From assembly GCA_012516065.1 (NCBI GenBank), contig JAAYXD010000123.1, positions 1-36,319 of the forward strand: a stretch of DNA of 36,319 nt, read 5' to 3'. Origin of the DNA: Clostridiaceae bacterium (GTDB lineage Bacteria; Bacillota; Clostridia; DSM-8532). Numbering within the stretch: the stretch's first letter is position 1; every line of letters begins with the position of its first letter. The notes under the pieces were generated by a model, which saw only the letters and a list, made by a program, of their open reading frames with translations, did no database searches and had not been told where the DNA came from. The position numbers were made by a program, and so were the translations under genes. Shown piece after piece: positions 2,007 to 33,334 of this stretch.

Positions 2007-2041
2007 TATTGTACAACTCATCAAAGGACTTTTGTACAATA
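2007..2041. repeat. Spaced inverted repeat TATTGTACAA/TTGTACAATA
   Basis: Two perfect 10-nt arms (2007-2016 and 2032-2041) are separated by 15 nt. The repeat lies downstream of folD and about 60-120 nt upstream of the rny promoter. It has no T tract and little GC, so it is unlikely to be a terminator; a protein-binding site is possible. Confidence 0.5.
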
Positions 2042-2079
2042 AAATGAAACATGAACGGAATTCAGCTTGAAATATATGA

Positions 2080-2949
2080 TCAAAACGTTGATAAGCCCGC
2101 CGAAACTCGCATTTCTGCGGCCTTCACCGTGTTTTTCATAAGCATCGCGATTGTCATCGGCCCTACGCCGCCCGGAACGGGTGTTATATACGAAGCAACA
2201 CTCTTTGCCCCGTCGAAGTCAACATCACCGCATAACTTTCCGTTTTCCATTCTGTTTATCCCTACATCAATTACAACCGCTCCCGGCTTAATAAAATCGG
2301 CTTTTATCAGTTCAGGTTTACCGACAGCCACTACAAGCACATCAGCCCTTCTGCACACGGATTTCAAATCCTTTGTCCTCGAATGGCAAACGGTGACGGT
2401 GGCATGTTCATGCAGGAGCAGCATTGCCATAGGCTTTCCGACAATGTTGCTTCGCCCGACAACCACGCATTCGCTGCCTTTCAAATCAATGCCCGTACGG
2501 TGTATCAATTCCATAACCCCGGCGGGTGTGCACGGCAGGAATTTATAGTTGCCTATCATAATCTTCCCGACATTTACCGGGTGGAATGCGTCCACATCCT
2601 TGTCAGGGTCGATTTCGAACAATACCCTTTCACTGTTTATATGCTGCGGCAGCGGTAGCTGGACAAGTATTCCATGTACATTTTTGTCGCCGTTCAATGT
2701 TTTAATAAGTTCAATAACCTCTTCTTCGCTTGTTTCTGCCGGCAGTGCATATTCGAAAGAACGAATTCCGATTTCATCGCAGACCTTTTTTTTGTTATTC
2801 ACATATATGCGTGAAGCCGGATCATCGCCGACAATAACAACCGCAAGCCCGGGCTGAACTCCATTTCTTTTCAGTTTTTCAACGTCATTTTTCAAACCAA
2901 GTCTTATTTCTGAAGCTATATCGCGTCCGTTTATTATTTTGGCTTCCAA
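2080..2949 (-). CDS. folD: Methylenetetrahydrofolate dehydrogenase / cyclohydrolase
   Basis: This bifunctional cytosolic enzyme interconverts 5,10-methylene-, 5,10-methenyl- and 10-formyl-tetrahydrofolate using NAD(P). Visible family signatures are the YVNNKKKVCDEIGI region with the catalytic Lys (about residues 50-60), the PLPQH segment (about 100), KDVDAFHP, the nucleotide-binding VVVGRSNIVGKPMAMLL stretch and PVPGGVGPMTIAML near the C-terminus. The length of 289 residues is typical. The start is a TTG with AGGAGA nine bases upstream. A second folate gene, 5-formyl-THF cyclo-ligase, lies far away at 34.3 kb. The gene follows the epimerase-family gene by about 110 nt on the same strand. Confidence 0.97.
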   Translation of the reverse strand: MEAKIINGRDIASEIRLGLKNDVEKLKRNGVQPGLAVVIVGDDPASRIYVNNKKKVCDEIGIRSFEYALPAETSEEEVIELIKTLNGDKNVHGILVQLPLPQHINSERVLFEIDPDKDVDAFHPVNVGKIMIGNYKFLPCTPAGVMELIHRTGIDLKGSECVVVGRSNIVGKPMAMLLLHEHATVTVCHSRTKDLKSVCRRADVLVVAVGKPELIKADFIKPGAVVIDVGINRMENGKLCGDVDFDGAKSVASYITPVPGGVGPMTIAMLMKNTVKAAEMRVSAGLSTF

Positions 2950-8582: not shown

Positions 8583-8644
8583 AACAATAAACCTCCCGGA
8601 ATAACATTTACAAATCCAAAAACGCGGCCTGCCAATCTAATTTT

Positions 8645-8674
8645 ACTATACCATATCATAGCAAATTGCCGCAA
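8645..8674 (-). promoter_or_regulatory. Candidate promoter of ftsK
   Basis: On the minus strand TTGCGG (8669-8674), 18 nt and TATAGT (8645-8650) lie about 60 nt before the ftsK start. The -35 matches the consensus at four of six positions. Confidence 0.5.
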
Positions 8675-8732
8675 GTTATCGGCTTCATTAGTTTACGCAA
8701 TTGCCCTTATGTCTCGTTTCTCATCTTTATTC

Positions 8733-8941
8733 CGCCTGTCTTCACCGAAAGCACCCGAACCACCGCTGAGCTTTGTCATATATTCATAGAACTGCCCAAA
8801 TGCGGGAAGAACTATTGTACAATAACGGAAACTACAGCGGAATGCAGCATAGAGATGTATTGTCAGAGCGAGGATAAGCAAGTCGACTGTTTAAGCAAAA
8901 ATGCTTCCTGCAATAAATGGGTGTTTCGGTAAAGACGGGCG
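8733..8941. repeat. Repeat locus A: two outward-facing repeat ends
   Basis: The left end (8733-8757, CTTCACCGAAAGCACCCG) and right end (8919-8941, GGGTGTTTCGGTAAAGACGG) are imperfect inverted copies of the end seen at the other repeat loci (TTTCGGTGACGACGGG). About 160 nt lie between them; only the first bases inside the left end (CCACCGCTG) still resemble the core hairpin. The two ends face the ftsK and yjbQ promoters. It could be a decayed pair of elements or a MITE-like unit with terminal inverted repeats. Confidence 0.55.
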
Positions 8942-8955
8942 ATATGAATTACGCC

Positions 8956-8984
8956 TTGTTTACAGGCAAAAAAGAGTATACAAT
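8956..8984 (+). promoter_or_regulatory. Candidate promoter of the YjbQ-family gene
   Basis: TTGTTT (8956-8961), 17 nt and TACAAT (8979-8984) lie about 50 nt upstream of the ATG at 9037 and 15 nt beyond the right end of repeat locus A. Confidence 0.6.
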
Positions 8985-9036
8985 AATGTAACGGGAATTC
9001 GGCCCGGATTCCGGGTATGTGAAAGGAGCATAAATT

Positions 9037-9432
9037 ATGGTTTTCAGGTACAGCATAAGAACAGGTTCGGAGGGGTTTTACAATATAACGTCCAAAGTAA
9101 ATGCGGCGATATCGGAAAGCGGCGTCAGGGACGGAATATGCGTTGTGTTCTGTCCGCATACAACAGCAGGCATAACAATTAATGAAAATGCGGACCCGGA
9201 TGTTGTTAATGATATGTTATACGCATTGAGCAAAACTTTCCATGACCGACCTGAATTCCGGCATGCCGAGGGCAATACGACTGCCCATTTAAAAGCCTCA
9301 TATACCGGAAGCAGCGTTACCGTAATTATTGAAAACGGTCGGTTATTGCTGGGAACATGGCAGGGAATATATTTCTGCGAATTTGACGGGCCAAGAAACC
9401 GTAACTTTTACGTAAAAGTGATTTCCGGTTAA
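9037..9432 (+). CDS. YjbQ/UPF0047 family protein (secondary thiamine-phosphate synthase type)
   Basis: This small protein of 131 residues has the complete family signature: CPHTTAGITINENADPDV (about 44-61), the HAEGNTTAHLKAS block (about 80-92) and the C-terminal LLLGTWQGIYFCEFDGPRNR motif (about 107-126). Conserved His, Asn and Asp side chains form a putative metal/anion site in solved family structures. Some members show weak thiamine-phosphate synthase activity, but the physiological function is unsettled. AAAGGAG lies just upstream of the ATG. Its stop overlaps that of the convergent DUF2161 gene by 4 bp. It is the only plus-strand gene in the first 20 kb and has its own promoter. Confidence 0.93.
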   Translation: MVFRYSIRTGSEGFYNITSKVNAAISESGVRDGICVVFCPHTTAGITINENADPDVVNDMLYALSKTFHDRPEFRHAEGNTTAHLKASYTGSSVTVIIENGRLLLGTWQGIYFCEFDGPRNRNFYVKVISG

Positions 9433-10187
9433 TTGGTGTTATTCAATGGGGGCTGTGTATCTTCACTGTCATTTATCATATTGCTGTAATACGATGAAAG
9501 TTCAGGATACATGCTGAATACTTCGTGCCCCGTGTCGCTTAATTTATATACTCCTCTTTCCACTCTCTCAAACCAACCGTAAAAATTCTTTTCAAGTATT
9601 GACCGGGTCTTTTCCCCTGTTCCTAATTCTTTTAATTTACGCGGGGATAATTGACCGTACTTTTTCAAACAGCACGCAATGTGTATTGCATTCTCCCTGT
9701 AAGCGGTCATAATCTTTGTCCGTGAAATTCCGCCTATGTTATAGCTCCCGTGGCGTCCGTCAATTTCACTGATAATGTTTTTTCTTTTTTTCCCCGAAAG
9801 CTGCATGCTTTTCCGTCTATCGAACGGGCGCGGCTCAAAAACCACATTTACCTGTTTCGCACCGTCTTTCAGCGATACTGTTATTAGGCCGAGCTCAAGT
9901 CTTCTCGCAATAAAACATAAATCTTTCCACTTTTTCGTGTAAATGCCGTACCGAGGTTTTGGTATCGCGATATATACATTCTCGGTAATACGCTGGCGTT
10001 TTGCCGCCTGGATCAGCAGTTCCACGCTCATATTACGCTTTAGTTCTATTATTATAAGTTCATCGCCTTTTTTAGCGGTTATATCGCAGTCTTTAACCTC
10101 TCCATGCACATCATAGCCAAGTTCTTTAAAATAATCGTATACCGGCTGGTATAAATCTTTCTCAAGTATTTTTGCTGTTTTTTTCAT
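9429..10187 (-). CDS. DUF2161-type protein with PD-(D/E)XK nuclease-like fold
   Basis: The N-terminal half (about 1-120) carries the restriction-endonuclease-like core: an early Glu, then DCDITAKKGDELIIIELKRN (about 33-52), in which Asp, Glu and Lys occupy the PD-(D/E)XK positions. The C-terminal half (about 155-240) looks like a small winged-helix or DNA-binding region (CCLKKYGQLSPRKLKELGTG). The family is annotated as putative PD-(D/E)XK phosphodiesterase; substrate and role are unknown. No methyltransferase, helicase or immunity gene is adjacent, so a standard restriction-modification role is not supported. The ribosome binding site GGAG precedes the ATG. Confidence 0.8.
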   Translation of the reverse strand: MKKTAKILEKDLYQPVYDYFKELGYDVHGEVKDCDITAKKGDELIIIELKRNMSVELLIQAAKRQRITENVYIAIPKPRYGIYTKKWKDLCFIARRLELGLITVSLKDGAKQVNVVFEPRPFDRRKSMQLSGKKRKNIISEIDGRHGSYNIGGISRTKIMTAYRENAIHIACCLKKYGQLSPRKLKELGTGEKTRSILEKNFYGWFERVERGVYKLSDTGHEVFSMYPELSSYYSNMINDSEDTQPPLNNTN

Positions 10188-10245
10188 TTCCGATACTCCA
10201 ACATATTCAGCAGCACAGTACCTGTATGTTCATTATTTTTTGACA

Positions 10246-11406
10246 TCAGCCTGCCTGGGGGCCGTTCCTGAAAAGTTTTTCCGCTTCCTGCATATTGTTA
10301 ATTATGGGAACGCCGAACGGGCAGCGGCTCTCACAGCTTCCGCAGCTGATGCAGTCGCTTCCGTTATGCTCCATGCTCAAATAGTGGGATTGGATCGATT
10401 CGGGTATATTCCCGCGATCCAACCGTGCTATGTCCAGGTACTTGTTAACCGCCGCTATATCAATTTCCGCGGGGCATGGCTGGCAGTGACTGCAATATAC
10501 GCAGTTCCCCCTGAAATCATTCCGCATCGTACCAATAATTCCGGCGTAGTCCTTTTCCGAGTCATCGAGTTCAAAATAGCGCACAGCGCCCGCAACCTCG
10601 TCCGGTGTCTTACAGCCGAGCAATACGCTTGCCACAGCCGGTCTGGACAGCGCATAATGGATGCATTGATATACGCTGAGCGGCTTTTCGAACGGGGTAT
10701 GTTCCGGTGATATTAATTTGCCTGCGCCAAGTGTCTTCATAACCGTAATTCCAACCTGTTTTTTCTGGCACAGCTTATACAGTTCCGCACGCTTCGGATC
10801 AAGCCCGCGGAATAAATCGGCACTGAAACCTTTATCAATATGATCCAAAACGTATTCTTCAGGCGGAAGCATGTCAAACGCGGGGTTTATACTGAACAAC
10901 ACAACTTCCGGCAGTCCTGTGTTTATTACCTTTATTGCTGTTTCCGGATTATGGGAACTAAAACCGATATGTCCTATGTAGCCTTGATTTTTCATATGCT
11001 CTACATATTTAATGAAGTCCGTTTCAAAAACATTTTTATAATCTTCATCCGAATCTATGAAAAACATCATCCCTAAATCTATGTAACCGCCGAAGATACG
11101 CAGCATATCTTCAAAGTACCGCCGCACCGTAGGCAAATCCCGGCTTATATCATACTGCTGGTTGACATCCGTCGAACCGATATGCCCCTGAATTATCACT
11201 TCCTTGCGACTGCTGCCCAGGGCTTTCGCAATGTTTTCCCGAACCTCTTTCCCCGGCATAAACACATCAAGAATATTTATATTGTGTTCAAGTGCGGCTT
11301 TAATTGTTTCTTCAACCTGCGAGTAAGGCTTCCTGTCAAGATGTTCACATCCGAGGCCAATAGCGCTGACTTTAAGACCTGTTTTGCCAAGTTCCCTATA
11401 TTCCAT
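10246..11406 (-). CDS. Aldo/keto reductase-like protein with C-terminal 2x[4Fe-4S] domain
   Basis: Residues 1 to about 290 follow the AKR TIM-barrel pattern (YRELGKTGLKVSAIGLGCEH at the start; GHIGFSSHNPETAIKVI mid-domain). The C-terminal domain has two ferredoxin-like cysteine clusters, C302-x2-C-x2-C-x2-C311 and C352-x2-C-x2-C-x3-C362 followed by Pro. The barrel Asp is kept (D47), but the usual DTA-x-x-Y segment reads DVFMPGK and the catalytic Lys position reads QGH (His75), so the classic Asp-Tyr-Lys-His tetrad is incomplete. I recall a clostridial subfamily with the same changes. It probably uses its Fe-S clusters for electron transfer; the substrate is unknown. AGGGG precedes the ATG by 8 nt. 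Confidence 0.87.
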   Translation of the reverse strand: MEYRELGKTGLKVSAIGLGCEHLDRKPYSQVEETIKAALEHNINILDVFMPGKEVRENIAKALGSSRKEVIIQGHIGSTDVNQQYDISRDLPTVRRYFEDMLRIFGGYIDLGMMFFIDSDEDYKNVFETDFIKYVEHMKNQGYIGHIGFSSHNPETAIKVINTGLPEVVLFSINPAFDMLPPEEYVLDHIDKGFSADLFRGLDPKRAELYKLCQKKQVGITVMKTLGAGKLISPEHTPFEKPLSVYQCIHYALSRPAVASVLLGCKTPDEVAGAVRYFELDDSEKDYAGIIGTMRNDFRGNCVYCSHCQPCPAEIDIAAVNKYLDIARLDRGNIPESIQSHYLSMEHNGSDCISCGSCESRCPFGVPIINNMQEAEKLFRNGPQAG

Positions 11407-11511
11407 TTTCAGTACCCCTCTATAAAAAATAATATATGTATAATTGTATCATAACTTATAAAGCGGGCGGGTATTATTTAACATAATGTATATCCGGATT
11501 TCGCGGTAACG

Positions 11512-12030
11512 TTAATCAATATCCGTCTTCCTGCCGCCGACTATTTCACGGGGCCACTTATCGCTTACGTTTTCTTCCCCTTTGTAATAATCGACTTTAT
11601 CCTTCACCTCATACATCTCCCGGTACGGCAGGATATTTACTTTCCCCGAGTCCGGGTATTCGCAGACATCTATATCGGGGGCCGTGCGTATATCAAGATA
11701 AAGGCACGGATTTCCCGTATGGTTATACAACTGGTGCGCGCCTTCCGGTCCCATTTCAAAGAATACGATATCACCTTCATTTAATTCTGCAAAACCTCGG
11801 GGTGTTCTTAGAATTGCCTTCCCGGACAGTATTACAAAGAGTTCTTCCGCATTTCTGTGAAAATGGTACGGATAAGAGAATTTTCCCGGATCAAGCGACC
11901 TTACGTCAAAATGCAAATGCTTTGACTTTGCAATCTCCGCGAGTTTCGGACTTGTATGCCAGGAAAATTCGGGCACCGGAGACTGCCGCAATTCAAGCGG
12001 CAAATTTTTCGCATTGAATATATGAGACAT
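11512..12030 (-). CDS. Cupin-domain protein
   Basis: This protein of 172 residues has a single cupin barrel: motif 1 is YHFHRNAEELFVILSGKA (HxH...E metal ligands, about 55-72) and motif 2 contains GPEGAHQLYNHTG (about 93-105, fourth ligand His). Single-domain cupins of this type bind a divalent metal and act as sugar isomerases, dioxygenases or small-molecule sensors. Nothing here fixes the substrate. There is no DNA-binding domain, so it is not an AraC-type regulator. GGAGGGG lies 8 nt before the ATG, and an extended -10 promoter lies 36 nt upstream. Confidence 0.88.
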   Translation of the reverse strand: MSHIFNAKNLPLELRQSPVPEFSWHTSPKLAEIAKSKHLHFDVRSLDPGKFSYPYHFHRNAEELFVILSGKAILRTPRGFAELNEGDIVFFEMGPEGAHQLYNHTGNPCLYLDIRTAPDIDVCEYPDSGKVNILPYREMYEVKDKVDYYKGEENVSDKWPREIVGGRKTDID

Positions 12031-12065
12031 GCAGTATTCCCCTCCTGACTTAATTTTCTATATTG

Positions 12066-12074
12066 ATTATACCA
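12066..12074 (-). promoter_or_regulatory. Extended -10 promoter of the cupin gene
   Basis: On the minus strand TGGTATAAT combines an extended TGn element with a perfect -10 box 36 nt before the ATG. No good -35 is visible. The repeat begins about 27 nt further upstream. Confidence 0.55.
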
Positions 12075-12100
12075 AAAAACAGCAATTGGTGCTCTATCTC

Positions 12101-12442
12101 CCAGGAAAACGAAACACCCGAAGTAAAGCCGCGTACCCACCGGAACGCGGCAGCAATGCCTCGACCCGCGAAGCAGGACCCGCGGAAATAATGCAAAAAC
12201 ACAGCGGGTGGCTCAGGTGTTTTCGGTGACGACGGGCGGCATGCTCCGGAGTCCTGCTGCCTATAAACAACTGTGGAGCGTGCGAATGAGCGACCTGGGA
12301 TATGGAGACCGCTGTGTGAAATCAGTACAGGAATGGAAGCGTGCTATTCGTATGTGCTTTGTCGCACTAGGAAACGAAAAACCCGAGCCAGGACCCGCGG
12401 AAATAATGCAATAACACGGCGGGTGGCTCGGGTGATTTCGGT
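12101..12442 (+). repeat. Repeat locus B: two core hairpins flanking a body module
   Basis: This is the most complete copy. The second core (12371-12442) reads ACCCGAGCC-AGG-ACCCGC ... GCGGGT-GGCTCGGGT, a long stem with an AGG bulge and a loop containing ATAATGCAATAACA, ending in ATTTCGGT. The first core (12111-12238) has the same parts, but its left arm is split by an insertion (12121-12173) that carries its own hairpin GCCGCGT/ACGCGGC. Between the cores is a 130-nt body with CATGCTCCGG ... CAACTGTGGAGCG, followed by GTATGTGCTTTGTCGCACTA. The ends have no obvious target-site duplication. Confidence 0.8.
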
Positions 12443-12452
12443 AGTGTAACAG

Positions 12453-13541
12453 CTACTTAATTTTTACGGAATAGCCCAAAGACTTAAGAATCCGGTAACT
12501 GCTCTGCTGGCTTTCCCTGTCGTAAAAACAGATCTCAAGCGCTCCGCCTTCCATTTCCCGGCTGTTGATGATACCGATGTTTTTTATGTTTATGCCGTAA
12601 CTGCTGAGTTCACCCGCAATCGATGCTATTACTCCCGGCTGATCTTCGACATCGACAACAATATCATATGATTTTATCAGCGAACCTATCTTCCTTTCAG
12701 AGAATGAATCGCGGTATTCTTTAGCGCTGCCGAAGAAATCCGTTAACGCCCCGGAATCTTTTTTTCGAAGAATTTCTTTGAAGGAACGGATGACTTCTTC
12801 GAATTCTGACAGTATTTTCAGGATATTACCACTGTTCGCAAGACAGATGCTCTCCCATATAACCGGGGAAGACGACGCAATTCGCGTAAGGTCCTTAAAT
12901 CCTCCCGCCGCAAGCGTATGCATTAACTTATCGTCGCCGTCAAGCTTTTTAATCATATTGACAATTGCCGATGCCAACACATGAGGGACGTGGCTTATCG
13001 CCGCGGTCACATAATCATGAACCGTCGGCTCCACAATGACGGGAAGTCCTCCAAGCGCTGTAATAAAATCTATTAGCCTGTTCAAATGCGCTTTATTGGT
13101 ATCGCTGAACGGAGTAAGCACATAATACGCGTTTTCAAACAAAGTATGTCTCGCCGCGTTATATCCGGTAGATTCGGAACCCGCCATCGGGTGGCCGCCT
13201 ATAAAAGTACACGCAAGGGGCATCTCCCGTACTGCGTTGACCACATTCACTTTTGTGCTTCCTACATCGGTAATTACGCATTCGCTGCCGACAATCGCGC
13301 TGAGCTTTTGCACACATAACGGCACAATATCTACCGGAACACATATGAAAATAATGTCGCAGTCCCTGAAAGAATCATTTATTTCATAGGCGGCTTCGTG
13401 GATCGTGCCTTCGGATAATGCCTGCTCCGTAACCTCGGGATTCCGGTTGTACGCGACAACATATTCGGCCAATCCTTTTTTATTTGCGGCCTTGACAATT
13501 GAACCGCCGATAATTCCAAGCCCGATAACACCTATTTTCAC
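12453..13541 (-). CDS. tyrA: Prephenate dehydrogenase with C-terminal ACT domain
   Basis: This enzyme oxidatively decarboxylates prephenate to 4-hydroxyphenylpyruvate with NAD(P), committing carbon to tyrosine. The Rossmann motif GVIGLGIIGGS opens the protein, followed by the helical dimerisation domain with GGHPMAGSESTGY (prephenate site), and the last 70 or so residues form an ACT domain (VDVEDQPGVIASIAGELSS) expected to bind an amino acid effector. The start is GTG at 13541, with GGGAGGG seven bases upstream. The upstream in-frame ATG at 13559 has no such site. The GTG overlaps the aroF stop by one base (TAGTG), implying translational coupling. Confidence 0.96.
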   Translation of the reverse strand: MKIGVIGLGIIGGSIVKAANKKGLAEYVVAYNRNPEVTEQALSEGTIHEAAYEINDSFRDCDIIFICVPVDIVPLCVQKLSAIVGSECVITDVGSTKVNVVNAVREMPLACTFIGGHPMAGSESTGYNAARHTLFENAYYVLTPFSDTNKAHLNRLIDFITALGGLPVIVEPTVHDYVTAAISHVPHVLASAIVNMIKKLDGDDKLMHTLAAGGFKDLTRIASSSPVIWESICLANSGNILKILSEFEEVIRSFKEILRKKDSGALTDFFGSAKEYRDSFSERKIGSLIKSYDIVVDVEDQPGVIASIAGELSSYGINIKNIGIINSREMEGGALEICFYDRESQQSSYRILKSLGYSVKIK

Positions 13542-14554
13542 TATATCACCCTCCCGCAAAGAGCCGCCAGAGGTTTAAGCTCTTCAAGCAATTTCGTGAA
13601 TTCTTCTAAATTTAAAGACTGCGGTCCGTCCGATAAAGCTTTCGCGGGGTTCGGGTGAACTTCGAGCATGATACCGTCGGCTCCGGCTGCAAGAGCAGCT
13701 TTGCACAGCGAAGGAATGTACTCTCTCACACCGGACGCGTGACTCGGGTCTATCAGTATCGGCAGATGCGATTTGCTTTTAATCACCGGTATGGCACTGA
13801 TGTCAAGCGTATTTCGCGTGGCTGTTTCAAAAGTCCTTATTCCTCTTTCACACAATACTACGCTGTTGTTTCCTTCCCGCATGATATATTCGGCGGCATT
13901 AAGCCATTCATCAATCGTAGCCGAAAGGCCTCTTTTCAGGACAACAGGTTTGCCTGTTCTCCCCGCCTCTTTAAGCAGTTCGAAATTATGCATATTTCTT
14001 GCGCCGATCTGAAGAATATCCACGTAATCAATCGCAATCTCAAGTGTTTTTAAACTGGTTACCTCCGTTACGATAATCATGCCTGTTTCTTCGGCCGCTT
14101 CGCGCAGATACTCCAGACCTTCACGGCCAAGACCCTGAAAAGAATACGGTGATGTTCTCGGCTTAAATGCGCCTCCCCTTAAAAAGCGGATGCCCTGTCC
14201 GGCTAAAAACCTGGCTTCTCCGATGATCTGTTCTCTTCCTTCAACCGAGCAGGGACCGGCTATAATGCAGAACGATTCCGCACCGATTGTATAATTTTTA
14301 ACGCGTATTACGCTCGGCTCCGGATTAAACTTTCTGTTGCTTAGTTTATAGCTTTCGGTAATAGGGACAAGTTTATCGACCCCGTCAAGAACCTCGAGAT
14401 TCTTTTCGGATATAACTGATTTGTCTCCGATGACTCCGATAATGGTCACTTGTTTTCCGGTTGAAAGATGTGCCTGGAGCCCGTGCTCTTCAAGAACTTC
14501 AATGACCTTTTCAATATTTTCCCGGGTCGCGCCCGGTTTCATTACAACAATCAT
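13541..14554 (-). CDS. aroF: 3-deoxy-7-phosphoheptulonate (DAHP) synthase
   Basis: This is the first enzyme of the shikimate pathway, condensing phosphoenolpyruvate and erythrose 4-phosphate. It is the AroA-I-beta/KDPG-like type. Residues 1-70 form the ferredoxin-like regulatory domain (MIVVMKPGATRENIEKVIE) and the catalytic barrel follows, with AGPCSVEG (about 99-106), RGGAFKPRTSPYSFQGLG (about 125-142), the metal/PEP motif VVLKRGLSATI and DPSHASG (about 272-278). The length of 337 residues is normal. Co-transcribed with tyrA downstream, so entry and tyrosine branch are expressed together. GGAGGG lies 7 nt before ATG, and the promoter is at 14664-14692. Confidence 0.97.
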   Translation of the reverse strand: MIVVMKPGATRENIEKVIEVLEEHGLQAHLSTGKQVTIIGVIGDKSVISEKNLEVLDGVDKLVPITESYKLSNRKFNPEPSVIRVKNYTIGAESFCIIAGPCSVEGREQIIGEARFLAGQGIRFLRGGAFKPRTSPYSFQGLGREGLEYLREAAEETGMIIVTEVTSLKTLEIAIDYVDILQIGARNMHNFELLKEAGRTGKPVVLKRGLSATIDEWLNAAEYIMREGNNSVVLCERGIRTFETATRNTLDISAIPVIKSKSHLPILIDPSHASGVREYIPSLCKAALAAGADGIMLEVHPNPAKALSDGPQSLNLEEFTKLLEELKPLAALCGRVI

Positions 14555-14663
14555 ATTTTTTCCCTCCTGCTACCATACTTCCATACTACAATAAAAAACG
14601 GGAAACAGACTATAAAAAAGCATTCCGCAGCGCCTGAACAATAAACGCCGCTTGGTTTAGTAT

Positions 14664-14692
14664 ATTCTAAACGAAGTCTTATTTTCAGTCAA
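14664..14692 (-). promoter_or_regulatory. SigA-type promoter of aroF-tyrA
   Basis: On the minus strand TTGACT (14687-14692), 17 nt and TAGAAT (14664-14669), each with one mismatch to consensus, lie about 110 nt upstream of the aroF ATG and 11 nt from the edge of repeat locus C. Confidence 0.75.
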
Positions 14693-14697
14693 GCATG

Positions 14698-14724
14698 AAA
14701 AAAGCCCCGGCAGGACGCCGGAGC
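14698..14724 (-). terminator. Intrinsic terminator downstream of the XerD-like gene
   Basis: On the minus strand GCTCCGGC, loop GTCCT and GCCGGGGC are followed by six T. The 8-bp stem and uninterrupted T tract make a good rho-independent terminator. It forms the outer edge of repeat locus C and separates the recombinase transcript from the aroF promoter a few bases on. Confidence 0.8.
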
Positions 14725-14910
14725 ATACCGCTATTTGTCCGCTCCACAGTTGCCTGTACGCAGCAGAGTTACGGAGCATGTCACCTGTCGTCACCGAATG
14801 CACCCGAACCAGAGTCGCGTACCTGCCGGAACGCGACAGCAATGCCTTGAGCCGTTAAAACACCCGCTGTTCCAACGGCATAATTCCAGTGGGTCCTTTC
14901 CCGGGCGTCT
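14704..14910 (-). repeat. Repeat locus C
   Basis: Read on the minus strand it matches locus B: a core remnant (CACCCGCTG region), an inserted hairpin GTCGCGT/ACGCGAC with loop TCCGGCAGGT, the end ATTCGGTGACGACAGG, then the body CATGCTCCGTAA ... CAACTGTGGAGCG. The body includes ACAG-GCAA-CTGT, a small hairpin with a GCAA tetraloop. Relative to the core, the inserted hairpin is on the opposite arm from locus B. It fills the gap between the xerD stop and the aroF promoter. Confidence 0.8.
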
Positions 14911-14915
14911 CATAA

Positions 14916-15767
14916 CTACGAGCTTTCGTTTACAATCTGCAAATATACCTGTGTTGACGAAATATCCGAATGCCCGAGCATCCTCTGTACATCCTTGAGA
15001 TCCTTCCCTCTCTGTACAAGATGCGCCGCAAATGAATGCCTCAGCGTATGCGGGGTAATATCCTTGTTGATGTTGGCTTTAGAAGTGTAATACTTGACAA
15101 TTTTCCAAAATCCCTGCCTTGTCAGCCTTTTTCCGTTCGTGTTGACGAACAGGGCTTTTTCGTCCTTGTCCCTGAGCATGAACGGCCTTACTTTTTCAAG
15201 GTATTCCTTCATAAGCTCGACGCATTTTCTTGAAATCGGGATTTTGCGTTCACGGCTACCGTGGCAGCATGTCAGGATTGCCTTTTGCAAATCCAAATCT
15301 TCAACATTCAGTGAAATAAGTTCCGAAACCCTGATTCCCGTCGAGTAAAGCAATTCGAGCATCGACTTGTCACGAACGCCTTTCAGGCCAATCCTGTTCG
15401 GCTGGTTTAGAAGTATTTCCACTTCTTCGACCGAAAGAATCTGCGGTATCTTTTTCTCTATCTTCGGTGATTCAAGCCCTATTGTCGGATTGCCCGTCAT
15501 AAAGTCATGGGAGATTAAAAACCTGTAAAATGCTCTGATAGACGCAAGGCTTCTTGAAATAGTCGTAACTGCCCGCCCCTGATTGTTCTGATATGCGATG
15601 TAGGTTGCAATTGTAGCTTTATTGCTCTGCTGGATACTGCTGACGTTTTTGCGCTGAAGAAATGCGATGTACTGTTCGATATCCCTCTGGTATGACATAA
15701 GTGTGTTTTGGGAAAGCTTTTTCTCATCCCTGAGATAATGGATAAATGCTGTTACCAGATTGTCCAT
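14916..15767 (-). CDS. xerD: XerD-like tyrosine recombinase
   Basis: This site-specific recombinase has an N-terminal SAM-like core-binding domain (residues 1 to about 90) and a C-terminal catalytic domain. The catalytic set visible is Arg in TGIRVSEL (about 146), His/Arg in TPHTLRHSF (about 240/243), His in LGHSD (about 266) and the Tyr nucleophile in STQVY (about 275). The beta-hairpin motif that normally reads GKGxKxR is CHGSRER here, so the catalytic Lys position is His. I read these codons directly. The length of 283 residues is slightly short, ending 8 residues after the Tyr. The start ATG at 15767 has GGGGTGA upstream. The expected role is resolution of chromosome dimers with FtsK, but the Lys change and an unseen XerC partner leave that open. 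Confidence 0.88.
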   Translation of the reverse strand: MDNLVTAFIHYLRDEKKLSQNTLMSYQRDIEQYIAFLQRKNVSSIQQSNKATIATYIAYQNNQGRAVTTISRSLASIRAFYRFLISHDFMTGNPTIGLESPKIEKKIPQILSVEEVEILLNQPNRIGLKGVRDKSMLELLYSTGIRVSELISLNVEDLDLQKAILTCCHGSRERKIPISRKCVELMKEYLEKVRPFMLRDKDEKALFVNTNGKRLTRQGFWKIVKYYTSKANINKDITPHTLRHSFAAHLVQRGKDLKDVQRMLGHSDISSTQVYLQIVNESS

Positions 15768-16145
15768 TTTTCTATCACCCCTATATTCCACATAAAGTCA
15801 TAAGACTGTTAACTTTTATCCTGTGAAACTAGGCTGTCCCAATTCTGTCGATTTATAGAGCGCTCTGGTAAAATAAGTATCCACTGATGTGAGAATTATA
15901 TCCTAATTGCGAGGTGTTAATCAAATACGATATAAATTTCCGGGTTAAGTTACATAACTAAAAAGTCGGCTGGATGCGATAAACAGAGAAAAACTTCGTG
16001 ATGACAATAATATCAGTATTTCCCAAGGCCAGGCTAAAAGCCATCAACATGAATTAAAACAAAACACCGGACCATCACCTGTTATACATAAATATGAACA
16101 AATGCTCTTATATTAATTTACCACTTAATTCATTTTTATGCAAAC
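15768..16145. other. Nudix-xerD intergenic region with possible decayed element
   Basis: This gap of about 378 nt has no intact gene. Its base composition is more A/T-rich than its neighbours. AGGCTGTCCCAATTCTGTCG near 15831 resembles ends of some insertion sequences. From about 15958 the plus strand has an open stretch of about 50 codons without a start (contains ISISQGQAKSHQHELKQNT), ending at a stop near 16116. This may be a relic. In related Clostridia a spoIIM gene often sits between a nudix hydrolase and xerD; none is visible here. Confidence 0.4.
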
Positions 16146-26371: not shown

Positions 26372-26440
26372 TATTTCCGCGGGTCCTGTTTCGGGTGTTT
26401 CGTTTCCCGGGGCGACAAAGCGCATGCCGATAACACGCTT
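26372..26440 (-). repeat. Repeat locus D (half copy)
   Basis: On the minus strand it reads AAGCGTG, then GCGCTTTGTCGC, GGAAACGAAACACCCGAA and CAGGACCCGCGGAAATA, matching 12344-12402 of locus B closely. The right arm and the TTTCGGTGACGACGGG end are absent; the match stops inside the loop, at the TIGR04086 gene promoter. Confidence 0.75.
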
Positions 26441-26614
26441 AATAGTTCAAAAGCGGCGTCCGAACAGCTTCCTTCGCTTCAATGTATGCACAGAAACCGG
26501 ACTTTAGAACCGGTCCGGCCGTGGAATCGGCTCCGTCATAATTAATAAAGCTGTAACATCATTACGTTAACCTGAATAAACTGTTATTGAAAATAATTTC
26601 AGGGGGTCAAGGAT

Positions 26615-33228: not shown

Positions 33229-33334
33229 TTACCCGTCGTCACCGAAAGCACCCGGGCCATCCGCTGCGTTAATGCGTTATTCCCGCGGGTCCTGGCTCAG
33301 GTGTTTCGTTTCCTAGTGCGACAAAGCACATATG
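33229..33334 (-). repeat. Repeat locus E
   Basis: Read on the minus strand: CATATGTGCTTTGTCGCACT, GGAAACGAAACACCTGAG, CCAGGACCCGCGGGAATAA, a loop, then the right arm GCGGATGGCCCGGGTG and the end CTTTCGGTGACGACGGG. It is a complete single core hairpin without the extra inserted hairpin or the body module, and lies between the CPBP gene stop and the dnaE promoter. Confidence 0.8.

Follow-up and report, generated by a model that had tools for sequence, protein, structure and literature searches.

Intergenic repeats of digester bacteria built as mosaics of nested hairpin modules

The repeats described here are mosaics of hairpin modules nested one inside another, and they lie in intergenic gaps of digester bacteria. 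They were noticed in a window of 36,319 nucleotides, one contig of a 3.07-Mb, 328-contig genome (G000), at five loci (A to E) which the first-pass annotation read either as a mobile element targeting the regions upstream of promoters or as a domesticated insulator or regulatory RNA. That reading is partly supported by the present analysis; it missed that separate palindromes are nested and that module A is part of a wider class. The explanation that we put forward, with about as much confidence as doubt, is that the modules are small palindromes, mobile but non-autonomous, which insert into other palindromes, are moved in trans, and are homogenized in place.

Module anatomy and the loci of the window

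The profiles of module H (about 84 nt), whose alignment comprises the 31 of 64 copies that are of near-standard length, give the order left arm, loop around AAATAATGCAATAAC, and right arm. Module M (about 131 nt), with the ends GGGCGACA..TGTCGCCC, sits between H copies, and the arrays read H-(M-H)n with a period of about 215 nt, partial arrays, detected with part profiles, being common. Module N (about 45 nt) also reads as a hairpin. Its orientation depends on the arm of H that holds it, being opposite in the left and the right arm, and at one locus (L136) both arms carry it. The full module A is a near-palindrome of 204 nt with the ends GAACTATTGTACAATAACG / CGTTATTGTACAATAGTTC. It occupies the loop of H, inside a 20-bp palindrome Z (GAACTATTGTACAATAGTTC), the 12-bp center of which, TATTGTACAATA, then stands on both sides of A. 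The parts found in the window are listed in Table 1, from which locus B is seen to be an H-M-H array whose first H carries N in its left arm.

Table 1. Repeat modules located in the window
Feature	Position	Strand	Basis and remarks
Module A, decayed copy	2028..2156	-	nhmmer with A profile, E 3.8e-13; divergent gap
Locus A, frame end, right-arm half of H (Hr)	8737..8767	-	profile, E 6e-8
Locus A, about half of module A (model positions 95-201)	8805..8918	-	nhmmer/DNA matches
Locus A, second frame end, Hr-like	8924..8938	+	weak alone, E 0.7
Locus B, first H, carrying N	12107..12235	+	profiles; loop and right arm 12177-12235
Locus B, N in left arm of first H	12126-12168	minus orientation	profiles
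Locus B, module M	12235..12365	+	profile, E 2e-40
Locus B, second H	12369..12442	+	sequence matches, folding, profile
Locus C, part of M	14729..14785	-	profile, E 5e-11
Locus C, H with N (14811-14855) in right arm	14786..14905	-	end 14905 set by eye
Locus D, left half of H and end of M	26372..26441	-	profile
Locus E, single complete H and stub of M	33232..33332	-	self-comparison, profile

The five loci share related sequence far above chance, as had been claimed; in the self-comparison, the 92-nt arms 12351-12442 and 33241-33332, among others, match at 89%. They are not the full set, since the decayed copy of module A at the head of Table 1 was missed. Locus A, delimited at 8733-8941, is a member of the family by virtue of its H-type ends, which form a frame and are complementary to each other on reading, but its inside is about half of the second large hairpin, module A. 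This inner stretch shows GGATAAG..CTGTTTAAGC on the + strand and has matches in 7 of 32 genomes of the family. Locus C, taken to span 14704-14910, holds from about 14729, while the - strand of 14704-14724 gives, by score, an ordinary hairpin like that of an intrinsic terminator. The latter hairpin has a T run and is situated downstream of a Xer-like recombinase gene (14916-15791). The bulged GC-rich hairpin proposed as the core of the repeat is found at 12369-12446 (-34.4 kcal/mol, z -5.4), but the z values of three other folded pieces are only -1.2 to -1.9. A role of the repeats as Rho-independent terminators was considered and rejected: those H copies that were read are not followed directly by a T run, and terminator-like sites in 8600-15000 are at the chance level (8 vs 7.4). 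In the same region, 19 consensus matches to promoters were found vs 11.3 (sd 3.4) expected, and such predicted promoter-like hexamers adjoin locus C (14692, -) and locus A (8959, +).

The repeats have many copies in the genome. An 83-nt piece of locus B gives 41 matches in G000 (itself included; the next best has E 1.6e-24) and a 353-nt query of the same locus gives 77. At least 49 distinct loci were delimited, a number that is a lower bound because some of the loci that consist of module A alone are not included. Among related Clostridia, a 302-nt unit has 71 and 43 matches in two sister species of the genus, G001 (Clostridiales bacterium DTU069) and G002 (Clostridiaceae bacterium AS06rmzACSIP_332), and 6 and 4 matches in two species of other genera, G006 (AS10tlH2TH_408) and G007 (AS09scLD_248), these names being assigned through 100% identical stretches. 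The M pattern also matches a fifth assembly, AS20ysBPTH_8, and the H query has matches in 5 of 61 genomes, G000 included. DTU069 reportedly appears in a paper on biogas microbiomes. Several contigs (L105, L113, L117, L125, L128, L137, and L182) start or stop in or near the repeats, which therefore probably break assemblies, and the copy numbers are thus lower bounds.

The first-pass annotation knew of no named family that fits, and none was found on the elements in Rfam, plasmids, phages, or text searches with exact fragments. Rfam 15 gave no match in the window at the gathering score, none on the elements of four further stretches (L102, L225, L176, and L238) up to E 1, and none on the A or tip hairpins of nine others up to E 2. 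The TwoAYGGAY RNA was rejected as an identity, as it has no match on the elements scanned in the window and in those four stretches. A phage or plasmid origin was also rejected, locus B having no match in plasmids and phages and three module patterns none in viral contigs. Among open-licence papers, no literature on these repeats was found by tip or module fragments.

Nesting, border repeats, and the proposed mechanism

All 32 full-length A copies of the genus are flanked by TATTGTACAATA-like 12-mers within GAAC..GTTC or close variants, and Z is also seen without A in H loops of a like kind; a regex for Z that tolerated up to 2 changes gave 28 matches, of which at least 2 are ends of A copies. 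One orthologous gap carries A in G001 and the bare palindrome Z in G000; one flank aligns over 428 nt (88%), and the opposite flank has a match as well. The comparison of filled and empty sites between close relatives thus provides one such pair, but the direction of gain or loss is not polarized. The 12-mer to the left of A is invariant (32/32), while the right one differs in 11 of the 32 copies (a count from the listing). This asymmetry, which plain target duplication does not predict, is more like that of a core carried by the element. As the 12-mer is itself palindromic, a target duplication and a terminal repeat are indistinguishable here.

For module N, 54 copies were matched, of which 45 have a recognizable H context, with N in the right arm (by reading) in 34 and in the left arm in 11. 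The right-arm copies have GGYT 4-mers on both sides in 22 of the 34 cases, the two sides being identical in 12 and different in 10, and an unoccupied H has GGYT once. Around the 11 left-arm copies the border repeat is 2-3 bp. Of the traits of MITEs, module A has the small size and the terminal inverted repeats. Its flanking 12-mers, which have a bare-site counterpart, may be a target-site duplication, but a 12-mer that is a palindrome could belong to the element; the repeats at N are short and identical in part of the copies.

Two copies of module A (L238 2319-2415 and L242 1096-1160) keep both ends and have lost the center, which is what a deletion inside a palindrome would produce. No longer, autonomous element bearing the ends of A was found in the seven stretches with one-ended A matches, which gave only internal deletion derivatives, fragments, and one case cut by a contig end.

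The same sites hold different contents in different species. Gap A contains A-in-H in G000, H-M-H with part of A in G001, and no recognizable element in G002; gap B contains HN-M-H in G000 and an H with both A and N in G001; gap C contains just a short remnant of the element in G001; and the module sets of gap D differ between G000, G001, and G002. On both flanks, 21 of the 49 G000 loci map to the G001 or G002 stretches compared, mostly at other lengths. These stretches were mostly chosen because they bear elements, so that empty sites are undercounted. In a tree of 88 M units with their half-hairpins, the genome label changes 10 times, compared to a mean of 42 (minimum 35) when the labels are shuffled, and the nearest neighbor of a copy belongs to the same genome in 73 of the 88 cases. 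The same test on 32 copies of module A gives 8 changes vs 12.0 (minimum 9), with the nearest neighbor in the same genome for 19. Shared sites filled with genome-specific copies point to an exchange between copies within each genome, which, as judged from these sequence comparisons, would be stronger for M than for A.

In the mechanism that we propose, the frame is H, which is present at most loci. Module A would have been inserted into Z in the loop of H, leaving the 12-bp center TATTGTACAATA on both sides, and N into one or the other arm of H, where it would have left direct repeats that are short and are clearest in the right arm (GGYT), while M would travel with H and multiply as tandem M-H units. 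The insertion step may be a transposition or a site-specific recombination carried out by a trans-acting enzyme, whose substrate would be palindromic DNA, perhaps single-stranded or cruciform, and recombination between copies would then renew the contents of old sites. The whole can stay foldable because each piece sits in a loop or an arm of a hairpin. Insertion is the simplest account of the nesting, the border repeats, and the filled and bare sites, but bare Z and N-less H could be explained equally by a precise deletion between direct repeats, the direction of change not being polarized.

Gene context and competing explanations

The gene context was evaluated for 115 distinct loci from three species (only part of the matches of G002 were taken in), with genes called by our own longest-ORF rule; 24 loci at stretch ends were dropped, and orthologous sites are included, hence the loci are not all independent. 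The placement upstream of genes noted for the window extends to this larger set, as 89 of the 91 intergenic loci with both neighbors called lie upstream of at least one gene. Tandem gaps account for 61, divergent gaps for 28, and convergent gaps for 2. In a control set of 49 stretches (412 kb of the genus), the elements are present in 1 of 38 convergent, 15 of 41 divergent, and 30 of 235 tandem gaps, the Fisher p for convergent vs divergent being 1.5e-4. The element-free convergent gaps of this set are shorter (2,262 nt in total vs 6,113 nt), and when gap length is allowed for the convergent deficit has p 0.045 in the control set and p 0.006 for the 28:2 count.

PMC3049150 reports that BOX, RUP, SPRITE, and IS elements of pneumococcus are over-represented in convergent gaps, and its authors allow that such an excess can be taken as a sign of mobile, parasitic entities. 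The deficit observed here is the opposite, and it therefore points to a landing preference near promoters or to a function. It also counts against the mobile account, since the avoidance is the reverse of what parasitic repeats do in pneumococcus.

Two more specific proposals on the placement fared differently. The position of the element on the strand of the gene that it precedes is reproduced for loci C, D, and E of the window, and locus B is inverted, as first noted, but in the tandem gaps genome-wide 21 elements are on the gene strand and 38 on the opposite one (59 of the 61 scored; p 0.036, the loci being not all independent), so that C, D, and E represent the minority type by strand. Abutment on the promoter does not hold as a general rule, the median distance being 117 nt to gene starts and 38 nt to gene ends.

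The gene-context bias makes a functional role the main rival to the mobile account. According to this alternative, the repeats are a domesticated structured element whose hairpins act, as RNA or as extruded DNA, on the transcription or the mRNA 5' ends of the genes they precede, and which is retained for this effect. Besides the positions upstream of genes and the avoidance of convergent gaps, many sites are common to several species, and the columns of a module A alignment (21 rows; six genomes, three genera) average 82% identity, 55 of them being invariant by count, with 10 of 34 predicted pairs changed on both sides and the pairing kept. However, the strand is mixed, the number of modules differs between many orthologous sites, the elements have no Rfam match, and the neighboring genes of the window have no common function. 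The latter encode FtsK, UPF0047, cupin, prephenate dehydrogenase, DAHP synthase, and Xer-like integrase proteins, as well as DUF3792, CDP-alcohol phosphatidyltransferase, DNA polymerase III alpha, and Rce1-like proteins. Counts of G-U vs A-C changes were tried as a test of the strand and discarded: they assign no strand to A (30 to 23), and those of M (104 to 28) are biased, as they lean on a fold chosen on that strand. A regulatory or single-strand-DNA-binding role of the repeats is possible, but we regard domestication as the full explanation as doubtful.

It is less probable still, and in our judgment unlikely, that these are old fixed repeats without present or recent mobility, which change only by slippage, unequal crossing-over, and gene conversion. 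The shared sites, the tandem arrays of about 215-nt units in varying length, and the genome-wise clustering of the copies are all compatible with such a history, and direct repeats at the module borders favor slippage. Nevertheless, the same site holds different modules and not merely different numbers of them, and the mirrored presence of N in both arms of H, together with A in loops with several kinds of flank, requires insertion at some time.

Returning to the mobile account, the system resembles a BIME or BOX mosaic, and also a MITE, in the way it works, but no RAYT gene was found in its own genome. With the BIME/REP repeats of enterobacteria, which are associated with RAYT, it shares palindromic units, mosaic intergenic arrays, and dozens of loci, but here the modules are much longer and of other sequence, several distinct hairpins are nested, and no Y1 transposase was found in G000. 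REP palindromes are given a length of 21-65 bases in the relevant part of PMC1525189, compared to about 84 nt for H and about 204 nt for A, and the REP table of PMC2817692 lists a GTAG-type head of the palindrome. The idea that the repeats are of the REP/BIME type and are spread by a RAYT (Y1 tyrosine) transposase, apart from the likeness to BIMEs in being palindromic, intergenic, and arranged in mosaic arrays, draws on a PF01797 match in 6 of the 10 genomes with module A or the tip (G001, G007, G019, G115, G280, and G397). The search of the whole of G000, which covered this one transposase family, gave no Y1_Tnp (PF01797) match in a genome estimated by the tool to be 99.98% complete. G001 has 1 match, and G002, G004, and G006, with 28, 41, and 12 module A matches, have none. 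As 3 of the 8 genomes without A carry PF01797, there is no clear association with module A over the 18 genomes, and no tip was found around 24 Y1_Tnp loci save one match with 3 changes taken as chance. Mobilization by RAYT was rejected on these grounds, as highly improbable.

The pneumococcal BOX, RUP, and SPRITE elements are similar in being composites in which an inner module is repeated a varying number of times, but they favor the gaps that are avoided here, and the likeness to BOX (boxA-(boxB)n-boxC) is in architecture only. Mobile pieces that land inside palindromic repeats are also known: IS elements of several families, e.g., IS1397 and IS621, target REP palindromes, as stated in a passage of PMC1525189. 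These are, however, full IS with a transposase, whereas the pieces inserted here are small palindromes, no partner of which was found in the seven stretches.

Module A and its tip hairpin beyond the genus

A DNA query detects module A in 7 of 32 genomes and 4 of 7 genera of the family. In G004 it forms tandem arrays with a period of about 220 nt and a different small hairpin between the copies. When 391 genomes of the class were searched with a covariance model of the module, 6 had a match, and three of these lie beyond the family (G397, E 1.5e-17; G115 and G280, E about 6e-6). The matches have a tip in common. Read on the other strand, this tip consists of CTGTYTGAGC (CTGTCTGAAC in G397), GAA or a longer stem, and GCGAGTTT or a close variant, placed on a stem. 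The combination CTGTYTGAGC/GCGAGTTT also occurs on hairpins of unrelated sequence in seven other families of the class, in Bacteroidota, and in Fusobacteriota. The exact 21-mer CTGTYTGAGCGAAGCGAGTTT is present in 12 of the 391 class genomes, from seven families by count that do not include that of the window, and the pattern read backwards is present in none of the 391. Weak BLAST matches (E 6e-4 to 0.1 in the relevant rows) lead to records of Aureibacter, Ilyobacter, and Parabacteroides; the Ilyobacter record has 10 tip copies at one mismatch, one exact, compared to 0 in the control. E. coli genomes have no match for the tip piece. There are three matches in viral contigs, among which that in L298 folds unlike the others and is probably due to chance.

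At 20 distinct loci collected by the tip alone, which include L298 and some close relatives (L272/L273 and L312/L314), the flanking 9 bases are 81% Watson-Crick complementary with mixed pair types, compared to 36% (maximum 51%) when the partners are shuffled. The triplet in 30 tip contexts is GAA in 23, GTA in 4, GCA in 2, and AAA in 1, the search itself being built on GAA. The layout of the putative class is a stem, CTGTYTGAGC, either a GNA triloop or a longer stem, GCGAGTTT, and the stem again, with the stem sequence free and the pairing and the tip fixed. We tentatively propose, considering it short of an even chance, that module A is a branch of an undescribed cross-phylum hairpin class defined by this tip, which a moving or copying protein perhaps recognizes as single-stranded or extruded DNA. 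Recognition in this form is suggested because the short form contains GCGAAGC, which is exceptionally stable in DNA. For stable DNA mini-hairpins of the GCGAAGC type a wider GNA rule applies, and the GTA and GCA variants occur in the short A-type tips as well. In contrast, in the genus of the window a long AAAAATGC..GCATTTTT stem replaces the triloop. The isolated GCGAAGC has no stable fold in the folding program with DNA or RNA parameters, while the relevant passage of PMC10527192 describes a 5' CGCGAAGCG 3' segment as forming an extraordinarily stable DNA mini-hairpin.

The members in different phyla may owe the tip to descent, to transfer, or to convergence on a stable fold, and in the genus of the window the tip hairpin would have been embedded in further palindromes and carried to dozens of gaps. 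The class differs from integron attC sites, which have conserved R and L boxes near the stem base and a variable tip and lie beside cassettes; here the tip is conserved, the stems vary, and repeated modules rather than cassettes lie between the hairpins.

Some further features were observed near the tips. In the Ilyobacter and Parabacteroides stretches (L271 and L272), a segment around TTGGTTACTTTT lies just 3' of the tip hairpin and contains two interleaved complementary pairs, pseudoknot-like by eye. On the Aureibacter plasmid pAT2 (L270 1459-2534), the tip is inside a small annotated ORF just before two tyrosine recombinase genes, the first of them Xer-like; a Xer-like recombinase gene adjoins locus C as well. 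In G115, a match to the TwoAYGGAY RNA (RF01731; L263 1155-1304, 47.8 bits vs a gathering score of 43) is separated by about 170 nt from a tip hairpin of the A-like kind, and structured repeats possibly form larger arrays in this region.

Of the elements found here, the tip hairpin of module A is the one with the greatest novelty, and it provides a short exact search key for a putative partner protein, for instance in the named type strain Ilyobacter polytropus DSM 2926. The avoidance of convergent gaps distinguishes the repeats from tolerated parasites as commonly pictured, and it opens a regulatory effect to testing. If the proposed mechanism is right, gene-free palindromes build on each other, each serving as the landing site of the next, and intergenic arrays would thereby grow without breaking their own fold.
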